Shown here: one piece after another, positions 14,501 to 35,877 of the stretch | Layout of the letters: every line of letters starts with the position of its first letter | How positions within the stretch are numbered: position 1 is the first letter of the stretch | Origin: a virus | IMG/VR virus record: IMGVR_UViG_3300049893_001114 | Location: 1 to 35,877 of that record | Length of the DNA stretch: 35,877 nucleotides | Reading direction: 5' to 3' (one strand) | Program-made: the position numbers and the translations under genes | The notes under the pieces: model-generated | The model's input: the letters and a program-made list of their open reading frames with translations, nothing else | Told to the model about the DNA's origin: nothing | Database searches by the model: none

Positions 14501-14539
14501 ACTAGCCTTAAATAAAAAGTTAAGTTATTGATTTTGTTA

Positions 14540-14602
14540 GAAACACGAAAAAATAAAAACCGGAAATATACGGTCTTCACTGTATATTCCTCTGTTATAT
14601 TT
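14540..14602 (-). terminator. 63-bp array-end element E1 (terminator-like hairpin)
   Basis: Read on the minus strand, GGAATATAC pairs with GTATATTTCC (one bulge), followed by GGTTTTTATTTTTT, a good intrinsic terminator. The element is shared with 22775-22837: both are exactly 63 bp, with 22 of 23 bases matching at the left, 23 of 23 at the right, and a divergent 17-base centre that still pairs with the conserved right arm. It begins at the stop codon of the last cassette gene of array 1. Read on the plus strand it also looks like an imperfect attC ending in GTTATAT. Confidence 0.8.
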
Positions 14603-14789
14603 GTTTTCTCAAGAAGTGGTCATCCTGAATAATTTCAAATATTTCATGGCTCTCCGCACCATGCTTTTTTGCTAAAGTGATTAACTTCCTGCACATATCA
14701 TTAAGTGCGAAGTTGGTAGCGGTTTTACTTTCTAAATCTTTCCTAAGCCCCACTATCACAGCTTTGTCTCTAGCAATTTTGTCTTTCAT
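14595..14789 (-). CDS. 64-aa helical cassette protein (array 1, third cassette)
   Basis: MKDKIARDKAVIVGLRKDLE and on to a C-terminal EIIQDDHFLRKQI: charged and helical with a possible coiled coil. The ATG at 14789 has GGGGTGG about eight bases upstream; a longer reading from 14894 would translate the attC and is rejected. The TAA stop lies inside ATATAAC, an R''-like core. The family is not recognised. A possible toxin, antitoxin or small regulator is only a guess from size and context. Confidence 0.72.
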   Translation of the reverse strand: MKDKIARDKAVIVGLRKDLESKTATNFALNDMCRKLITLAKKHGAESHEIFEIIQDDHFLRKQI

Positions 14790-14808: not shown

Positions 14809-14886
14809 ATATAACAAATCGTTGCAGCATCACTCCGCTGCGCTACGTTGGATGGGCTGCGCCCACCGCTGAACTCGGCGTTATGC
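14809..14886 (-). other. attC site 3 (family III)
   Basis: 78 bp. Minus strand: R'' GCATAAC, spacer GCCGA, L'' GTTCAGC, long loop, L' GCTGCAAC (extra C unpaired), spacer GATTT, R' GTTATAT. The L arms pair fully apart from the single extrahelical base, and the R cores TAAC/GTTA pair. The exonuclease stop codon TAA is in R''. Clearly related to site 4. Confidence 0.9.
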
Positions 14887-15324
14887 GGTCGCAATTGTGT
14901 AGCTTTTTGCTATCGCCTTTGCATCGAGCAAAGCATTGTGTGGAACTGAAGATTCTTTTGAAGTTATACCCCAATGCAAGTAAAAAGTTATATTTTGCAT
15001 TGCTGGGCATTCACCGCCACCAACTTCTATTAAGTCACAAAAATGCTTTATATCGGTAGGCCAATCTGCAATAACAGTTATATGCTCAAACATGGAAAAA
15101 ATTTCAGCAATTCTATTTGCTACTACTTTTTTATCTACATACACAAAAGGCGCACTGCAATGATGAAGCACAGGAATAACATTTTTAGCTACCCAGTCAT
15201 CTTGTGCGCAATCTTTAAAAATGGCGTAAATTTCTGGCGCAAGCCCTTCTACTTGAGGCACCATTGCAAAACTAATAAGCTCACCTTTAAAGCCGTCAAA
15301 CTCGCAATCTATAAAAAATTTCAT
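14881..15324 (-). CDS. DEDD-type 3'-5' exonuclease in a gene cassette
   Basis: 147 aa from the ATG at 15324; an upstream ATG lies too close to attC. The exonuclease residues are visible: Asp6 and Glu8 in FIDCEFDG, an Asp in VIADWPTD (about 90-97), and HNALLD (His129, Asp134), the DEDDh pattern. The short single-domain form resembles Rv2179c-type exoribonucleases. Likely substrates are RNA 3' ends or short oligonucleotides. It starts 12 bases after attC site 2 and ends in attC site 3, the normal compact cassette layout. A role in counter-defence or RNA turnover is inference. Confidence 0.82.
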   Translation of the reverse strand: MKFFIDCEFDGFKGELISFAMVPQVEGLAPEIYAIFKDCAQDDWVAKNVIPVLHHCSAPFVYVDKKVVANRIAEIFSMFEHITVIADWPTDIKHFCDLIEVGGGECPAMQNITFYLHWGITSKESSVPHNALLDAKAIAKSYTIATA

Positions 15325-15335
15325 GCTTAAACCTC

Positions 15336-15420
15336 GCATAACAAAGTTATCAAGCGGACGCTATCTAAGTCCGCGTATTTATCATTTGTGAAACGTGCGC
15401 CGCTTATAACGGCGTTATGA
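15336..15420 (-). other. attC site 2 (family II)
   Basis: 85 bp. Minus strand: R'' TCATAAC, spacer GCC, L'' GTTATAAGCGG, loop, L' CCGCTTGATAAC (one extra G), spacer TTT, R' GTTATGC. The L arms pair over 11 bp with a single extrahelical base and the GCC/TTT spacer is unpaired, the hallmarks of an IntI substrate. Site 6 has the same length and design. Confidence 0.93.
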
Positions 15421-15660
15421 CTTGGCGGTTGAATTAAATACTGCGCAAGCCCAAACAGCATAAGCTCCGTAAGCAATAAATAAGATTCCAAAAATCGGGT
15501 CGAGCCAATGCTCAAACCGTTCGCCAAAAATCAATTTTTCAACACTTGCCTCAATAATGTTAAAAAACACAAAAAATAAAATCACTACAAGAGTGCTTGT
15601 TACTGGATTACCTTTGCATGATGCAGCCAATGTCATTACTGAATTTTGCAGTTGTTCCAT
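15415..15660 (-). CDS. two-span membrane protein in a gene cassette
   Basis: 81 aa with hydrophobic stretches at about residues 20-40 (STLVVILFFVFFNIIEASVE) and 54-74 (PIFGILFIAYGAYAVWACAV), linked by a charged loop. A short N-terminal polar region carries a Cys. The ATG lies 26 bases after the R' core of attC site 1, and the stop TAA is inside the R'' core of site 2. The family is not recognised. Small membrane proteins are common integron cargo. Confidence 0.75.
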   Translation of the reverse strand: MEQLQNSVMTLAASCKGNPVTSTLVVILFFVFFNIIEASVEKLIFGERFEHWLDPIFGILFIAYGAYAVWACAVFNSTAKS

Positions 15661-15686: not shown

Positions 15687-15768
15687 TCATAACAAGGCGT
15701 AGCAGCATCACTACGCCTTCGGCTTCGTTCGACGCTATAGCGGGCGCGGCTGTACATTGGCGTTAAAC
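15687..15768 (-). other. attC site 1 (family I)
   Basis: 82 bp. Minus strand: R'' GTTTAAC, spacer GCCAAT, L'' GTACAGC, a loop with its own small hairpins, L' GCTGCTAC (extra C), spacer GCCTT, R' GTTATGA. The stop codon of the upstream phage gene lies in R''. Site 5 shares its arms and spacers. Confidence 0.9.
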
Positions 15769-16236
15769 CCCAACAATAACCGCCTCAAACTCACAATGAC
15801 TATACCGCCCTTTGTTTTTGTGGCCTTCCGGGATCGCGTCATTGCATTTTAAACACTCTCTAAGCTCGGACTCCATTGCGTCATTTAGTATTTGTGACTT
15901 TTTACCCTGTAGTGCGCACGTAAAAGTAAACTCAATCTCATCGACTTTTAAACCTCGCTTTTCAGTTTCGAAAACGACTCGCAGCGTTACTATATATGTA
16001 AACTCAGCGTTCATAATCCATTCGCTTGATGATGCCCATAGGTTTTGCACAATTATCCTCTGTGTCGGATTTTTGTGCGTAACATTTCCCGCGATTATTT
16101 CCGCATTGTTTTCAAACGGATTTTTATCAGTCCATGTAAGCGTTAGCCCTTTCAGTCCGCGTCTTGCGCGCTCCATGTAGGACGCAATTTTCTTTTTATG
16201 CCCGCTTCGCTGCCTGGGTTTTCGTAGTGCTGTCAT
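15763..16236 (-). CDS. hypothetical phage protein at the left border of array 1
   Basis: 157 aa, basic N-terminus (LRKPRQRSGHKKKIASYMER) then a mixed alpha/beta body with a CLKC pair near residue 126. The ATG overlaps the NinB stop by four bases and has a strong GGGAGG site, so it belongs to the phage operon rather than to a cassette. Its TAA stop is supplied by the R'' core of attC site 1, so the cassette insertion may have replaced or trimmed its true end. Function unknown. Confidence 0.72.
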   Translation of the reverse strand: MTALRKPRQRSGHKKKIASYMERARRGLKGLTLTWTDKNPFENNAEIIAGNVTHKNPTQRIIVQNLWASSSEWIMNAEFTYIVTLRVVFETEKRGLKVDEIEFTFTCALQGKKSQILNDAMESELRECLKCNDAIPEGHKNKGRYSHCEFEAVIVGV

Positions 16237-17969: not shown

Positions 17970-18030
17970 ACTCATAACCCCGATATAGTTTTATGCCTAG
18001 TTTGTCGATCTTTGCTAAAAGCCAAATCAT
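17926..18030 (-). CDS. 34-aa peptide after the PAPS-reductase-like gene
   Basis: MIWLLAKIDKLGIKLYRGYE and an acidic end. Its ATG overlaps the stop of the upstream gene by four bases (ATGA), which supports translation by coupling. It overlaps the 57-aa gene. Confidence 0.45.
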   Translation of the reverse strand: MIWLLAKIDKLGIKLYRGYEYDDTSRDWAKGEGV

Positions 18031-19232
18031 ATTATTCCAGCCTCTTTGCGCTGCTCTGATTTTTGCTTCATATATTTTTCATACGCTGCGCTTTTTGTTG
18101 GGCTGAACCCAAGACCTTTACACCAAAAATCATTGCGTAGTATTGTTTTGCATACCTTTCGCCAAGATGGAACTTTCCCTTTGTTTTCTAGCTTTACTTC
18201 AACCTTATCAGGGATACCGTTTTCATATCCTCTCGTTGACCACCAACGCAAATAAACAAAGATTTTATTCTTGTAATGCTCTGCTGTTCTTTTTGGCATT
18301 GTTTCAAGCAAATGCTTGGCGAATGACTCAAATGTATGCCCCTCTGGAATTGATATAGAGTAGTTACCCATTACCGCACCCTTCTCATTTGCGTATAGCG
18401 CTCCAGTGTTTGCACCTGCAACCCTAAGCGCCAACTTAGCCCACATTTCAGGCTCGCAAACTTGATAAAGCCACAATCCCTTTCTAGCTTCATCGCCAAA
18501 AGGCTCGCAAATTCGCATTTGAGATAGCTTCATACCTGACTGAAGCATTAGGTCATATAGCTTGTTGTATTCAAGATCATTTTTCCCAAGATAAACCCAA
18601 ATATCTTTTGTTTTCCAGTCATAAATAGGATACACATTCCACGCATTTTCTATTACATTTGTTGTCCATGGCTTTCCATCAAACATGGGTTTGTTTCTGG
18701 CTATAGTCCTAAACCGATTTAACGATTCATCCGCACGTATTCCTACAAACTGAGCCAATGGCTTACCTTGTGCGTACCATTTAGCAAAACATGGAACAAA
18801 CTCCTCAAAAGGCATTCCATAAAAGTAAAAGTCAAAAAACGACTGATCTGTTATCGACCATTTTGATGGTTTGCGAACCCACAAATCCTTTTTGTTTTCA
18901 TCCCATGCCGTCCATTCTGGCTCAAATTGACTTGTTGCATTCCATGTCTTCATTGGCAATGAAACCCAAAATGGCTCAATATAGTCAGAATACTTTTCAA
19001 ACATTGCCTCAACAAACGAAATTGTTGAGCGCATTTGACATTCCCAATCTATAAACAAGCATCCAACTTTTACCTTACGCTTCATTGCCTCTTGCATAAC
19101 CAGATGAAGCATAACTGTAGAATCTTTTCCGCCAGAAAATGATATGCAAATTCGCTCAAAGTTATCGAACACATATTCAATTCGCTCTTTTGCTGCCGAA
19201 AGAACATCAATACCAATATAATTTTTAGGCAT
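18027..19232 (-). CDS. IbrA/YbdN-like PAPS-reductase-family (PP-loop) protein
   Basis: 401 aa, the size of E. coli YbdN/IbrA. The PP-loop SGGKDS is at 33-38, so it probably activates a substrate with ATP. The C-terminal half carries the family hallmark MRICEPFGDEARKGLWLYQV. Family members are paired with a ParB-like partner (IbrB/YbdM), as here. IbrA/IbrB are known as regulators of immunoglobulin-binding proteins in E. coli ECOR-9; the chemistry is unknown. The same fold occurs in DndC, which acts in DNA phosphorothioation, so a sulfur-related DNA or RNA modification is possible but unproven. A GGAG site precedes the ATG. Confidence 0.85.
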   Translation of the reverse strand: MPKNYIGIDVLSAAKERIEYVFDNFERICISFSGGKDSTVMLHLVMQEAMKRKVKVGCLFIDWECQMRSTISFVEAMFEKYSDYIEPFWVSLPMKTWNATSQFEPEWTAWDENKKDLWVRKPSKWSITDQSFFDFYFYGMPFEEFVPCFAKWYAQGKPLAQFVGIRADESLNRFRTIARNKPMFDGKPWTTNVIENAWNVYPIYDWKTKDIWVYLGKNDLEYNKLYDLMLQSGMKLSQMRICEPFGDEARKGLWLYQVCEPEMWAKLALRVAGANTGALYANEKGAVMGNYSISIPEGHTFESFAKHLLETMPKRTAEHYKNKIFVYLRWWSTRGYENGIPDKVEVKLENKGKVPSWRKVCKTILRNDFWCKGLGFSPTKSAAYEKYMKQKSEQRKEAGII

Positions 19233-19611
19233 GAATTTTCTCCAAATAATTTTCCTTCCATTGCTTTATATGCTTTTTTGCTGCCGCATTAGCTTTATCT
19301 TTTATGGAGTCCGGCAAATACCCCCAAGACTCCTTTGTAATATCTTCGGGGCATTCAATACCTATTGCTGCCGCTGCCTGTCCAAGCCATGCAACCTGGT
19401 TTACACCTGAATTTGTCAGATTAGCTTCGCACGATATTGGCCACTCGGTGACAACACGCATCATGCAAGCCTCAAATAAATCGGTATCGCTCATAAAAGC
19501 TACGCATTGGCTTATTTTTTCTTTCTTATCGATTCCTAGTGATGTTTGCCACATTACGCTTTTAAACTCTTCGCACTTTGAAAAGTGATGATACTTCCGC
19601 TTAATTCTCAC
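19225..19611 (-). CDS. hypothetical protein between the IbrB- and IbrA-like genes
   Basis: 128 aa with repeated Trp and the segment EWPISCEANLTNSGVNQVAW, then GYLPDSIKDKANAAAKKHI. It resembles small phage proteins that travel with PAPS-reductase and ParB-like genes, but the family has no known function to me. Overlaps both neighbours by 11 and 8 bases, so the three are one translation unit. Confidence 0.72.
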   Translation of the reverse strand: MRIKRKYHHFSKCEEFKSVMWQTSLGIDKKEKISQCVAFMSDTDLFEACMMRVVTEWPISCEANLTNSGVNQVAWLGQAAAAIGIECPEDITKESWGYLPDSIKDKANAAAKKHIKQWKENYLEKIHA

Positions 19612-20272
19612 TTATTTCCTCTCCCTCAAATTCTTCTTGCCCAATATCATCAAAACTCTTTGCTTCCCACGCCTCACTATAGTCTGCGTCTTTGAAAGCA
19701 AATGCCAACCCTTTAACCTGCTGCAATCTTAGAACCTCATCCGGCTCCATTCCAAGCTCACTAGCAATTCTCTCGTCACTCCAAAAGCGTCTTTTTAACT
19801 CGACAACAATGTCGCTCATTGATGAAACACTGTGCTTTCCTCTTGCTCTATTGTGTCGAATCGTTGCGGCCATCCTGTCGTTTCTGTCGTGACGATCATC
19901 AGAAAGCTCAACAATTGGTAAGTAGCCCATAATCATTTGGCTAACCTGCTCTGACTCTTTTCCAACGCGGTGACGATGAAATCCATCAACAACTTCATGA
20001 CCATTGTTTGGCCAAGTGACAATTGGCTGAGTGTACCCATCAGAAATTATTGAGTGCTCAAGCAGTTTCATTTCTGGTGGAGCCACGCTGTTCGGGTTGT
20101 AGTCATTTGCATGAACCAAATCCGATTTTACCCACTTAACAAAATCAACGGGACTTTGTTTGAATGGGCTTATATTGTGTATTGCTTGGCGTATTTCGTT
20201 TATAGCTGATACTTTTTCATCCGTATCAAGCTTTTCAAGATCTTTAATCAACTGCTTTATTTGTTCAATCAT
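19601..20272 (-). CDS. IbrB/YbdM-like ParB-domain protein
   Basis: 223 aa. A helical N-terminus of about 55 residues is followed by a ParB/sulfiredoxin-type nucleotide-binding core: ANDYNPNSVAP, SDGYTQPIVT and VDGFHRHRVGK, then a helix-turn-helix-like region (SDERIASELGMEPDEVLRL). ParB-fold proteins bind CTP or ATP and DNA. Paired with the IbrA-like gene, as in E. coli ibrB-ibrA. The acidic tail is unusual. Partition is unlikely, as there is no ParA. Confidence 0.84.
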   Translation of the reverse strand: MIEQIKQLIKDLEKLDTDEKVSAINEIRQAIHNISPFKQSPVDFVKWVKSDLVHANDYNPNSVAPPEMKLLEHSIISDGYTQPIVTWPNNGHEVVDGFHRHRVGKESEQVSQMIMGYLPIVELSDDRHDRNDRMAATIRHNRARGKHSVSSMSDIVVELKRRFWSDERIASELGMEPDEVLRLQQVKGLAFAFKDADYSEAWEAKSFDDIGQEEFEGEEISEN

Positions 20273-21057: not shown

Positions 21058-21809
21058 CAGAAGTTCCTCGCGCGTTCTAGGTCAAAAGTGTAGGCGTTGC
21101 GTTCGGCTTGTTTCTCTGCTGCTGTTTTGTATTGGCCCTGTGCAGAGTTTTGCATCCATTGAACCTCAAAACCTCGCCATCCACGGGTAACGCATTCAGC
21201 TATGCATTGGTCAACTGAGTAGCCAAAGGTTGCCGCCTTGCGTAGCTCAACAGCAAAGCGGTTGATAACAGTTTGGCTAACATTGGCTTTGAGCCTTTTG
21301 CGCATAGATAGCCAGTCTGCCATAGTCTGATCGCTTGGCATTGAAGGCCAGCAAGAGTAATCGAGTTGAACTTTTTTAGGCGCAGCCGTTTGAGCCGTAG
21401 GCGATAATGATTCTATGACGGTTCTATTTGACGGTTCTATGACGGTTCTGGGTGCAGCTCCTGCACTGGGGGGGTGCAGCTCCTGCACTGGGGGGGGTGC
21501 AGCTCCTGCACTACCTAGTGAATCTCCTGCACTACCTACCAACATATTTTTATTGATTTTGTACATGTTTGAAGTTTGTTCGCCAGCCTTGAATCTGCTT
21601 TCAACTGAAAGAAATCCGCTATCAACTAACGCGCCAATATGATTGATTACGCTTCTACGAGACATTTCACACTGTGATGCGATAGTTGCAAATGAAGGCC
21701 AGCACTCCCCATCATCGTTTGCGTTGTCGCATAGCTTCAAAAGGACTAGCTTTCTAAGTGGGTTATTTACCCTTGCATCAAATGCAAAAGTTAGGTATTT
21801 GATGCTCAT
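21057..21809 (-). CDS. lambda O-like replication initiator containing the origin
   Basis: 250 aa. The N-terminal winged helix-turn-helix (DGECWPSFATIASQCEMSRR, residues 33-52) binds origin DNA. A low-complexity linker (about 93-140, rich in Ala, Gly and Pro) covers the iterons at 21451-21536. The C-terminal domain would bind the P-like loader. As in lambda, the origin is inside the initiator gene. The start overlaps the stop of the HNH-like gene by four bases (ATGA). Confidence 0.83.
   Translation of the reverse strand: MSIKYLTFAFDARVNNPLRKLVLLKLCDNANDDGECWPSFATIASQCEMSRRSVINHIGALVDSGFLSVESRFKAGEQTSNMYKINKNMLVGSAGDSLGSAGAAPPPVQELHPPSAGAAPRTVIEPSNRTVIESLSPTAQTAAPKKVQLDYSCWPSMPSDQTMADWLSMRKRLKANVSQTVINRFAVELRKAATFGYSVDQCIAECVTRGWRGFEVQWMQNSAQGQYKTAAEKQAERNAYTFDLERARNF
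21451..21536. other. replication origin: iterons inside the O-like gene
   Basis: Three perfect 17-base repeats GGTGCAGCTCCTGCACT begin at 21451, 21473 and 21496, with a fourth half-copy at 21524-21536. The period of 22-23 bases places them on one face of the helix. Each holds the palindrome GTGCAG-ctc-CTGCAC. Because the period is not a multiple of three, the repeats encode different residues in each copy, so the conservation is at DNA level. A GACGGTTCT direct repeat (three copies) follows at about 21418-21449. Confidence 0.88.
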
Positions 21810-22735: not shown

Positions 22736-22774
22736 TGTTTTCATAAATAAAAACCTAAGTGGTTGATATTTAAG

Positions 22775-22837
22775 GAAACGCGAAAAAATAAAAACCGTGA
22801 TATGACAGCGTGCGCTGTATATTCCTCTGTTATATTT
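22775..22837 (-). terminator. 63-bp array-end element E2 (terminator-like hairpin)
   Basis: Second copy of the element at 14540-14602. On the minus strand ATAT-ACAGCG pairs with CGCTGT-c-ATAT, then CACGGTTTTTATTTTTT follows. Flanks are shared with E1; the centre differs but keeps a stem with the conserved arm. Starts at the stop codon of the last cassette gene of array 2. Confidence 0.8.
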
Positions 22838-23018
22838 CAAATACCTTGAAGCATTTACTACATCGGTAAACATGAAAATGCGATGGAATTCCGTCACCGC
22901 CCTTACTGCTATGGTAATCATGAACATCAAAGAACTTATCGCTAAACCAGCAAATTGATCCATCTTTTACATGACCAAACCCAAATAAACATTTAATTGC
23001 CCACCATGCTTTTTTCAT
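22830..23018 (-). CDS. 62-aa Cys-containing cassette protein (array 2, third cassette)
   Basis: MKKAWWAIKCLFGFGHVKDG, ending HVYRCSKCFKVFEI. A CxxC pair near the end, another Cys pair earlier and several His could hold zinc. The ATG at 23018 lies 13 bases after the R' core of attC site 6; a longer reading would translate the attC. The stop TAA is in an ATATAAC core, as in the last cassette of array 1. Confidence 0.7.
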   Translation of the reverse strand: MKKAWWAIKCLFGFGHVKDGSICWFSDKFFDVHDYHSSKGGDGIPSHFHVYRCSKCFKVFEI

Positions 23019-23030
23019 ATCAAAATCCAA

Positions 23031-23115
23031 ATATAACAATGTTATGAAACGGATGCGGCATAACACCGTGTTTTAAATTACTACCTACTGCGCACCGTTT
23101 ATAACGGCGTTAGCT
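23031..23115 (-). other. attC site 6 (family II)
   Basis: 85 bp. Minus strand: R'' AGCTAAC, spacer GCC, L'' GTTATAAACGG, loop, L' CCGTTTCATAAC (extra C), spacer ATT, R' GTTATAT. L arms pair over 11 bp with one extrahelical base. Same length and design as site 2, with compensating changes in the L arms (AAGCGG/CCGCTT there, AAACGG/CCGTTT here). Confidence 0.93.
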
Positions 23116-23310
23116 GTTGTCGCATTTACAAGAAGTAACTGTGACTTGCCAGCACCCTTCAAATTTAGGCTGAATGGTGCATCCGTCCGCAATCCATTGG
23201 CCTAGAATTTTTCCAGCTTCTTTTCGCTCAGTATTTTGGTAATCCATTGCCCCAACAATCAAACCGCATTGGCAGATTGCAATAAAGCCTTTAGGTTGTA
23301 ATTTTGCCAT
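23110..23310 (-). CDS. 66-aa Cys-rich cassette protein (array 2, second cassette)
   Basis: MAKLQPKGFIAICQCGLIVG, then a helix ERKEAGKILGQWIADGCTI and an ending SCKCDNS. The CxC pairs at both ends suggest one zinc site. The ATG at 23310 is chosen with GGAG upstream; a GTG four codons earlier is possible. The stop TAA is in the R'' core of attC site 6. It resembles short proteins found in phages and plasmids, function unknown. Confidence 0.72.
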   Translation of the reverse strand: MAKLQPKGFIAICQCGLIVGAMDYQNTERKEAGKILGQWIADGCTIQPKFEGCWQVTVTSCKCDNS

Positions 23311-23335
23311 TTTGTTTTTCACTCCGTTAAGTTTC

Positions 23336-23391
23336 AGCTAACAAGGCGTACCATCCGACAGCTACGCTGCGGCTGTACATTGGCGTTACAT
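23336..23391 (-). other. attC site 5 (family I)
   Basis: 56 bp, the shortest site. Minus strand: R'' ATGTAAC, spacer GCCAAT, arm GTACAGCCG, inner hairpin CAGC-gta-GCTG, arm CGGATGGTAC (one extra G), spacer GCCTT, R' GTTAGCT. Nearly the whole site pairs, as in short attC sites of classical resistance cassettes. Confidence 0.9.
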
Positions 23392-23586
23392 TCACTCGCT
23401 AGGTATGTTTTCTTTAGTCAAAGAAACAAACTTCTTATTTGCAATCCACTCATCTTGAGTAAATCCGCACTTAGTACATTCTCTTCGCTGCATAACTTTT
23501 TCTTGCTTACACGGAATAGAGTAAAAATAACTCAAGCTAGTTGTTTCGTATCTCTCCCATTTGCTCCACTTATGAAAAAAGCACAT
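23392..23586 (-). CDS. 64-aa zinc-ribbon-like cassette protein (array 2, first cassette)
   Basis: MCFFHKWSKWERYETTSLSY, then RRECTKCGFTQDEW. The CxxC pair with an earlier Cys and His suggests a small zinc ribbon. GAGGA lies eight bases before the ATG at 23586. Its stop TGA is the only one in the arrays that falls just outside the attC core. The HKW-KW start is frequent in short phage and cassette proteins of unknown role. Confidence 0.74.
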   Translation of the reverse strand: MCFFHKWSKWERYETTSLSYFYSIPCKQEKVMQRRECTKCGFTQDEWIANKKFVSLTKENIPSE

Positions 23587-23609: not shown

Positions 23610-23684
23610 ATGTAACGAGTCGTTGCAGCACACTACGCTGCGCTTCGCTGGATGCTTTCGGCACCGCTGAACTAGGCGTTATGC
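23610..23684 (-). other. attC site 4 (family III)
   Basis: 75 bp. Minus strand: R'' GCATAAC, spacer GCCTA, L'' GTTCAGC, loop, L' GCTGCAAC (extra C), spacer GACTC, R' GTTACAT. Same arms as site 3. The stop codon of the phage gene at 23679 lies in R''. Confidence 0.9.
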
Positions 23685-23921
23685 CGTCATTTCTTCGTAA
23701 TACTTCCGCACAATTCTGCACTCGATATGGTCTTGATTAGACTGCGTATCTAGCCAGTATTTCACATCATCCAGGCTATTTTTTCGCCACCACGGTTCAG
23801 AGTAAATTCGCTGCCGAGCCCGAACCATAGTCACAAAAACTGCCAGATCATCCTCGCTGCAGTCGTCTAAAAAATCATTCGCAGCGCTCCAAAACTTCGA
23901 CCGATCCGTTTTCTTTTTCAT
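23679..23921 (-). CDS. 80-aa phage protein at the border of array 2
   Basis: MKKKTDRSKFWSAANDFLDD and an acidic, aromatic, helical body with no recognised domain. It overlaps the upstream gene by 47 bases, so it belongs to the phage operon. Its stop TAA is part of attC site 4, suggesting that insertion of the cassettes changed its end. Confidence 0.68.
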   Translation of the reverse strand: MKKKTDRSKFWSAANDFLDDCSEDDLAVFVTMVRARQRIYSEPWWRKNSLDDVKYWLDTQSNQDHIECRIVRKYYEEMTA

Positions 23922-34845: not shown

Positions 34846-35877
34846 CGAATGCGCCTTATGCCGTTGGTCACTAGGACTGCTGTTGAGTTTGTGTTGTTTT
34901 CGATATACGCCTGAGTGTAGTCATTGACGTTTAAATTTAACTGCCACGGAATAACGAATCGTGACGGGCTTACGTTGCTAATCTGCGCGGTTACTTTTGT
35001 GCTAGGCAAAATAGTGCCGGTTAAAGCTAGATAAACCGATACAGTTACAGGCGTTCCCGTAGTTGCTTGCACATAAAAAACATCATCAGTCGGGAATGTA
35101 ATTCGCTTCTCGCTGAGGCTTGTTAGTTTTCCGCTGCCGTTTGTGCTGAATTTAGATAGCCGCTCGGTGGCCCATGTTGAACTATTGATTAGTGTCGGAG
35201 TATTGACCGCGCTAAATGTCGTATTTGTTGCATTACCGTTGAAATATATCAGCGCATCCGAAATCGTATCTTCTAAGCCGCCATTGTCAGAAGCCTCTAC
35301 GCGAATATCCGATATAGTAATTCCACCGGCTAGCGGGGCCATTGCTGAGGCGCCAAGGCCACATGACTCAATAGTTAAAATGTTATTCGCTGAAATGTTG
35401 GCGCTGTTTGCCAATGCGTAAAGAAATGATGAACCGCTGGGCCCGCTGGGCTCAATGTCTCGAAATTCCCCACCGCTTACAACCGCATTTGAAATATCGA
35501 ATAGTTTATGAGTAACCGAAGTCGCAACCGTGAAAACTTTTGTGGCCGAAAGGATACGAATATCGTTATTAAATACGAACCCCTGCCCCGTTATCGAAGC
35601 GATTAGGACGTTACTCCAGTTAAAGTTCGTGAAGTTGGTGCCAGTCCCTGTAAACGAACCCAAATGCTTAACCGCGTATATAGATGAATCTTGAACGACA
35701 CTAATACCAGCACCAGAGAAGTCTATAAGCGTTCCATTGGGGCATTCAAAACCTAATTGATTGATCGCCCAGCTAGCATTGACAGAGGTAAACATCACAC
35801 CAGTCCCCGTGTAAATCAATGCCGAATAAAACGAGTTTTTGGACGTTATGTAAACGCCATTTTGCACAATGAACCGC
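34842..35877 (-). CDS. virion/tail protein, C-terminal part (continues at the left end of the window)
   Basis: Remaining residues of the 427-aa protein whose start is at 404. With the 156-base overlap removed, 248 bases at the left end plus 1036 here give exactly 428 codons, so the join keeps the frame. This part is a long series of beta strands (for example TNFTNFNWSNVLIASITGQG), Asn/Thr/Ser-rich, which suggests a solenoid or fibre, and ends basic (NGIRRIR). Reading from the internal GTG at 35867 would be an artefact of the contig edge. Confidence 0.85.
   Translation of the reverse strand, partial: RFIVQNGVYITSKNSFYSALIYTGTGVMFTSVNASWAINQLGFECPNGTLIDFSGAGISVVQDSSIYAVKHLGSFTGTGTNFTNFNWSNVLIASITGQGFVFNNDIRILSATKVFTVATSVTHKLFDISNAVVSGGEFRDIEPSGPSGSSFLYALANSANISANNILTIESCGLGASAMAPLAGGITISDIRVEASDNGGLEDTISDALIYFNGNATNTTFSAVNTPTLINSSTWATERLSKFSTNGSGKLTSLSEKRITFPTDDVFYVQATTGTPVTVSVYLALTGTILPSTKVTAQISNVSPSRFVIPWQLNLNVNDYTQAYIENNTNSTAVLVTNGIRRIR
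35722..35877. repeat. terminal overlap, right copy
   Basis: Matches 1-156 with three differences, each silent in the tail gene (Gly, Pro and Gly codons). Subtracting it gives a circle of 35,721 bp. Confidence 0.93.

Follow-up and report, generated by a model that had tools for sequence, protein, structure and literature searches.

Two short arrays of attC sites lie in a phage genome, each with one site of the same three families, and they raise the question of how the arrays arose and by which recombination their genes are exchanged. In this study, we analyzed IMG/VR virus record IMGVR_UViG_3300049893_001114, positions 1–35,877 (a virus; 35,877 bases, hereafter the window). The window has an Sf6/HK620-like terminase and encodes NinB, NinG, an O-like replication protein, an SSAP, and an exonuclease. 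Its ends carry a terminal direct repeat (positions 1–156 versus 35722–35877, 98% identical), and the record is therefore probably near complete. Array 1 is on the minus strand at 14.5–16.2 kb, flanked by NinB-g0 and NinG, and array 2 is on the minus strand at 22.7–23.9 kb.

Several other segments of the window attracted attention. Four tandem copies of a unit of approximately 22 nt around GTGCAGCTCCTGCACT (21450–21538) lie within the O-like replication gene and are possibly iteron-like; similar copies are present in L002. The segment 22412–22601, just past the end of array 2, is mostly without a listed ORF of at least 70 aa, is conserved in L001 (75%) and L005 (83%), and may be a structured RNA or an origin; tRNA and Rfam searches of the window found nothing. 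Consecutive PAPS reductase-like, small, and ParB-like genes (18027–20272; 69–86% identity to G009) possibly form a DNA-modification or host-takeover set.

Trained on 133 attC sites of viruses, the covariance model R1 identified exactly six sites in the window, every one on the minus strand. Because the training set of R1 contains these six sites, the result is a matter of consistency and not independent proof. The features of the two arrays are as follows, in gene direction, all on the minus strand; T1 and T2 are attI-like elements described below.

15763 to 16236, minus: g0, phage gene of native origin (157 aa), immediately downstream of NinB, the anchor of array 1
15687 to 15767, minus: attC site 1, family I (R1, 35.8 bits)
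15415 to 15660, minus: g1, cassette gene (ORF, 81 aa), stop codon within R'' of the family II site
15336 to 15419, minus: attC site 2, family II (R1, 70.5 bits)
14881 to 15339, minus: g2, cassette gene, RNase H/3'-5' exonuclease-like (phrog_2259 RNase H, E 7e-25), start codon uncertain
14809 to 14885, minus: attC site 3, family III (R1, 51.2 bits)
14595 to 14789, minus: g3, final cassette gene of array 1 (ORF, 64 aa), stop TAA within the TAAC of T1
14549 to 14601, minus: T1, attI-like, closing array 1 immediately ahead of NinG (T profile, E 1.4e-12; T1 is a seed)
23679 to 23921, minus: g0', start of array 2 (ORF, 80 aa), stop codon coinciding with R'' of the family III site
23610 to 23683, minus: attC site 4, family III (R1, 45.2 bits)
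23392 to 23586, minus: g1', cassette gene (64 aa; phrog_21493, unknown function, E 1.2e-4)
23336 to 23390, minus: attC site 5, family I, short (R1, 31.1 bits)
23110 to 23322, minus: g2', cassette gene (ORF, about 70 aa)
23031 to 23114, minus: attC site 6, family II (R1, 61.8 bits)
22830 to 23018, minus: g3', final cassette gene of array 2 (62 aa, from the sequence), stop codon within the TAAC of T2
22784 to 22836, minus: T2, attI-like, end of array 2 (T profile, E 1.8e-11; T2 is a seed)

The arrays have the make-up of CALINs, with 3 + 3 attC sites, spacers of 219–450 nt, and no PF00589 in the window. The sites also have the structural hallmarks of attC, namely R''/R' boxes with G|TT, a paired stem, and two extrahelical bases on one side. 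TAAC/GTTA is invariant in all 133 virus sites, 90.9% of the stem cells are paired (72.3% after shuffling), and the covariation score of the stem is 0.499, compared with 0.164 after shuffling and no more than 0.103 after sliding. An extrahelical T falls in one column of R1 on the gene-sense strand in 133/133 sites, and among the 112 sites lacking a long insert, 59 have T-N6-G or T-N6-C. In the part of PMC3053210 that concerns these motifs, T-N6-G on the bottom strand defines the class excised best by IntI1, and the gene-sense strand of the phage sites matches its description of attC bottom strands. In site 1, the strand in gene sense is the counterpart of the canonical attC bottom strand. Judged by their sequences, the six sites in the window are real attC sites.

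Integron arrays have a canonical direction relative to intI. In 16 bacterial integrons, R1 placed 97/97 sites on the intI strand, and the cassette ORFs were antisense to R1 in 58/75 segments, which agrees with canonical integrons; the 17 segments with a longer ORF in the R1 sense count against the explanation proposed below. In the phage arrays, the longer ORF was in the R1 sense in 140 of 148 segments. Phage ORFs thus run with R1 and bacterial ORFs against it, so that, from these orientations, the phage cassettes are inverted relative to both attC and attI: the attC precedes its gene, and the genes face attI. The ordinary cassette, in which the gene is on the attC top strand with attC downstream, was not the arrangement found in the phages. 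A turn of a whole array has consequences in Vibrio cholerae, where, according to the relevant part of PMC11023631, placing the attC bottom strands on the lagging-strand template led to more excision.

The inversion affects the crossover point, because the G|TTA of the attC strand becomes TAA|C when read along the gene strand. The TAA of R'' is a stop codon at 126/205 sites, including 33 of 42 first sites, and the predicted crossover therefore usually lies within a stop codon. In the window, the stop TAA of g0 (15763–15765) is the R'' TAA|C of site 1. Homologs of g0 in G016, G009, and G011 (50%, 42%, and 30% identical, respectively) end at the same codon and are directly followed by another gene, with neither an attC nor an array; such empty sites count in favor of the integron reading proposed below. 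The g1' gene does not terminate in TAA|C, which counts against the explanation proposed below. Placement of the crossover in the GTTA box beside the gene start was also considered, and it was dropped because shared units end at TAAC.

Both arrays of the window end in a 94-nt repeat (14509–14602 and 22744–22837, 78% identical), the core of which (T) consists of TAACAG followed by an imperfect inverted repeat. Among 44 arrays with at least 500 nt available past the last site, 14 of which supplied the seeds of the T profile, a T-like element (E ≤ 0.01) closes 36, compared with 0/44 control stretches; 22 of the 30 non-seed arrays have it, and at E 0.01 it was not found in 8/44 tails. A scan using the T pattern only yielded three new contigs in which the upstream side is visible, each with 2–4 attC sites, and a fourth that breaks exactly at T, where the upstream side is out of view. 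Contig 3300020151_001762 starts at one T (L068 position 1) and ends exactly at another (L150 position 14132), as if the genes adjoining T were too variable to assemble.

T-like elements also occur beside bacterial integrases. Matches (E < 0.01) were present in 6 of 31 IntI loci, 160–310 nt 5' of intI and on the intI strand, and nowhere else in these loci. In L151 (MAG F1-60-MAGs008), the element lies 5' of intI with an E of 3e-5, and the IntI proteins of the two best T-bearing loci (L151 and L201) are 84% alike. These intI-side homologs were found in Cellvibrionaceae-related gammaproteobacteria. T thus agrees with attI both in position and in its match to cognate attI, and it is best read, from its sequence and position, as a stand-alone attI. 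Two other readings of T were discarded. One was a simple transcription terminator, in view of the T-run with which T1 and T2 end; the copies in L137, L136, and L147 lack this run, and T recurs at attI positions. The idea of a dead attC was dropped once bacterial attI sites matched T.

Sites of the same families are carried by SSAP relatives of the window. Two pattern scans found 22 and 21 virus contig stretches, and R1 detected 2 to 11 sites each in 33 of 40 virus records; the seven records without R1 sites include the close SSAP relatives L002, L003, and L005. Over the loci examined, 208 attC sites fall in 49 clusters, a count that takes in a few contigs binned with bacterial MAGs, among them L131, which is plainly phage. 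A Blast search of the family II site or T against 50,697 phage records gave no match covering most of the query.

This distribution bears on the original prediction, in which the sites formed three pairs, one of each per array in cyclic order, reflecting either shared donors or a duplication followed by gene exchange. The pairing by stem arms holds: arm identity is 0.87, 0.79, and 0.93 for families I, II, and III, compared with 0.37–0.59 across families, and pairs with at least this similarity make up only 4.4%, 8.5%, and 3.2%, respectively, of all pairs in the 133-site set. The spacers, also claimed to be shared, are alike in family III and differ in family I (81 versus 55 nt). The two family II sites are equal in length as stated, at 84 positions each under R1 instead of 85 bp, and their stem differences do compensate (A-U/G-C and C-G/U-A); selection on the stem gains support from the strong covariation across the 133 sites. 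The order was read correctly as I-II-III in array 1 and III-I-II in array 2, but given two arrays with an identical set of three families, a cyclic order has a probability of 1/2. Holding the same three is mildly unusual: under the two clustering thresholds that separate I, II, and III, it occurs in 0.2–0.5% of random draws and, among 6220 pairs of real triples, in 13 to 34, figures that depend on the threshold and concern a pattern noticed after the fact. With thresholds that keep the three apart, the 133-site set has 11 to 18 arm families, and families I–III are three of at least 11 that recur across more than 30 virus contigs. Because they are drawn from so wide a pool, the one-of-each, cyclic pattern is a minor detail. 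Shared donors are favored by the presence of the same families in dozens of other virus contigs. The original prediction did not include the attI-like repeat at the array ends, the inversion of the genes relative to attC, or the coincidence of stop codon and crossover.

The second origin that had been suggested, duplication of an ancestral array within the phage with subsequent swapping of genes between the copies, would account for the identical set of three families and for the 78% identity of the T1 and T2 repeats. In a full-length comparison with the 207 other sites, however, the window partner was never the nearest relative (ranks 124 and 9 for I, 39 and 35 for II, 3 and 2 for III), T is general and not private to this phage, and no homology was detected between the cassette genes of array 1 and array 2. 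Duplication inside the phage is therefore not supported, and we regard it as extremely unlikely.

Traces of exchange were sought among the cassette genes. A homolog in another array was found for 30 of 206 cassette ORFs, in 14 clusters, from which the pairs of shared genes were taken for comparison. The clearest shared units span from the TAAC of the 5' attC to the TAAC of the next site (L120/L142, 97%; L116/L141, 88%), and in seven of eight internal pairs the similarity is greater at the 5' attC than at the 3' attC, with the reverse in one. Several homologous pairs have neither attC in common, which suggests that other exchange routes also act or that attC sites diverge fast. When phage cassettes were searched for in bacterial integrons (97 bacterial loci), the only matches were the same-MAG loci L091, the contig from which L132 came, and L097, which is the phage contig of L131 again.

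The cargo is mostly without known function. For 144 of 157 cassette proteins found, Pfam gave few matches: two Lar, one Tad2-like, one Acb2/Tad1, one N6/N4 methylase, one TET-associated glycosyltransferase, one PAPS reductase, one RNA ligase, and others; PHROGs added DNA methyltransferases and a glucosyltransferase. Individual motif-bearing ORFs are L131:15508-15768 (Tad2-like), L128:15460-15642 (Lar-like), and L036:1058-1768 (DNA methyltransferase), the first two recognized by the motifs of Tad2 and Lar; these families are also present in the Pfam results. In the window, g2 is RNase H-like and the remaining cassette genes have no known function; g1 has no PHROG or Pfam family and no homolog among relatives, and g0', the ORF of which overlaps the phage ORF upstream, likewise has no homolog among relatives. 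The Lar, Tad2, Acb2/Tad1-like, methyltransferase, and glycosyltransferase genes in relatives give some of the cargo the appearance of counter-defence.

The phages have no recognized integron integrase to move these cassettes. TIGR02249 (integron integrase) gave no match over the cut-off in 35 virus records and two sub-threshold matches, and PF00589, absent from the window, was present in 2 of 26 relative records. The intI of a complete integron is thus missing, and recombination would have to use IntI from elsewhere, most simply from the host.

We propose that the arrays are integrase-less, inverted phage integrons that use host IntI in trans, a reading to which we assign a probability of roughly 0.75. 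Each array would be an integron without an integrase gene, borne by a phage and arranged back to front, with T as its attI. Host IntI would insert circular cassettes at T by the usual reaction between the attC bottom strand and attI. The phage cassette unit would be C..attC..GTTA-gene-TAA, with the gene inverted relative to attC, so that the genes face attI and the phage operon, entering from g0 at the far end, reads them. Each insertion would rebuild the stop codon of the gene adjoining attI, and the newest cassette would lie beside T and the oldest beside g0. We infer that host IntI does the work and that the arrays are still turning over.

Two further explanations dispense with present integrase activity. 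The sites may be conserved structured linkers between which the phage SSAP and exonuclease swap genes by short-homology recombination, IntI being now uninvolved. The window does encode both proteins, the phages are without an integron integrase, and the shared genes that keep neither flanking attC, with similarity confined between GTTA and TAAC, would fit such exchange. Annealing anchors, however, need neither a hairpin nor an attI, and the covariation of the stem, the canonical extrahelical base, the recognition of bacterial integron attC sites by R1, and the match of T to attI beside intI all count against it; we consider the linker explanation unlikely. Alternatively, the phages may have captured chunks of ordinary host integrons that have since become frozen as non-mobile CALINs. 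Precedents exist in the phage CALINs already described in the relevant part of PMC9892861, and a source exists in host-type integrons with a T-like attI. Against this origin, which we consider very unlikely, stand the inversion of genes relative to attC in phages and not in bacteria, the presence of more than one array per genome with a separate T for each, and the small proportion of cassette ORFs with a homolog in another array.

More widely, the phage group may keep a dedicated swapping system, in which each genome has several attI sites that stand alone, the inverted cassettes form a private pool with stop codons as the crossover point, and IntI is borrowed from the host, by which co-infecting phages trade genes that are mostly of unknown function and partly counter-defence; we lean slightly toward this wider view. 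It would explain how phages exchange small genes, among them host-defence inhibitors, precisely and one at a time, and it makes the use of host integron integrases by phages directly testable. Native phage genes that end exactly in the crossover also bear on how genes become joined to attC. Phage CALINs had been known as scattered cases; the present arrays point to an organized phage form of the integron, reversed in polarity and equipped with attI sites and a cassette pool of its own. In the open-access literature (PMC), we found neither attI sites without an integrase nor inverted cassettes described for phages.

The closest known systems are the 17 CALINs in phages reported by Qi et al. 2023 (PMC9892861), in which, as far as the pertinent sections go, IntI1 recombined five of six tested phage attC sites with attI1. 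The virulent-phage CALINs described there (for example, those of TJE1, P12002L, and Pseudoalteromonas phage H101/PH101) have the same one-small-gene cassettes, no intI, and methyltransferase cargo. In contrast, the present arrays belong to a large uncultured phage group and have a common attC pool, an attI-like element at their ends, and crossovers that fall in stop codons; a search of TJE1, P12002L, and H101 found no T-like element at E < 4. In H101 (L212:26529-27986), R1 detected three sites, of which two are almost the same, and all lie on the strand that carries the annotated genes, so the inversion may be shared there; the same sections of PMC9892861 contain no mention of it. Chromosomal integrons of Cellvibrionaceae-related bacteria (L151 and L201) have the same T-type attI 5' of intI and attC sites recognized by R1. 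They differ in that intI is present, the attC is approximately 130 nt in L201, and the genes are canonical and point away from attI. The lambdoid nin region is a swap-prone context, and array 1 likewise sits between NinB-g0 and NinG. While nin-region mosaics have plain gene boundaries, the phage arrays have putative attC/attI crossovers as their borders.
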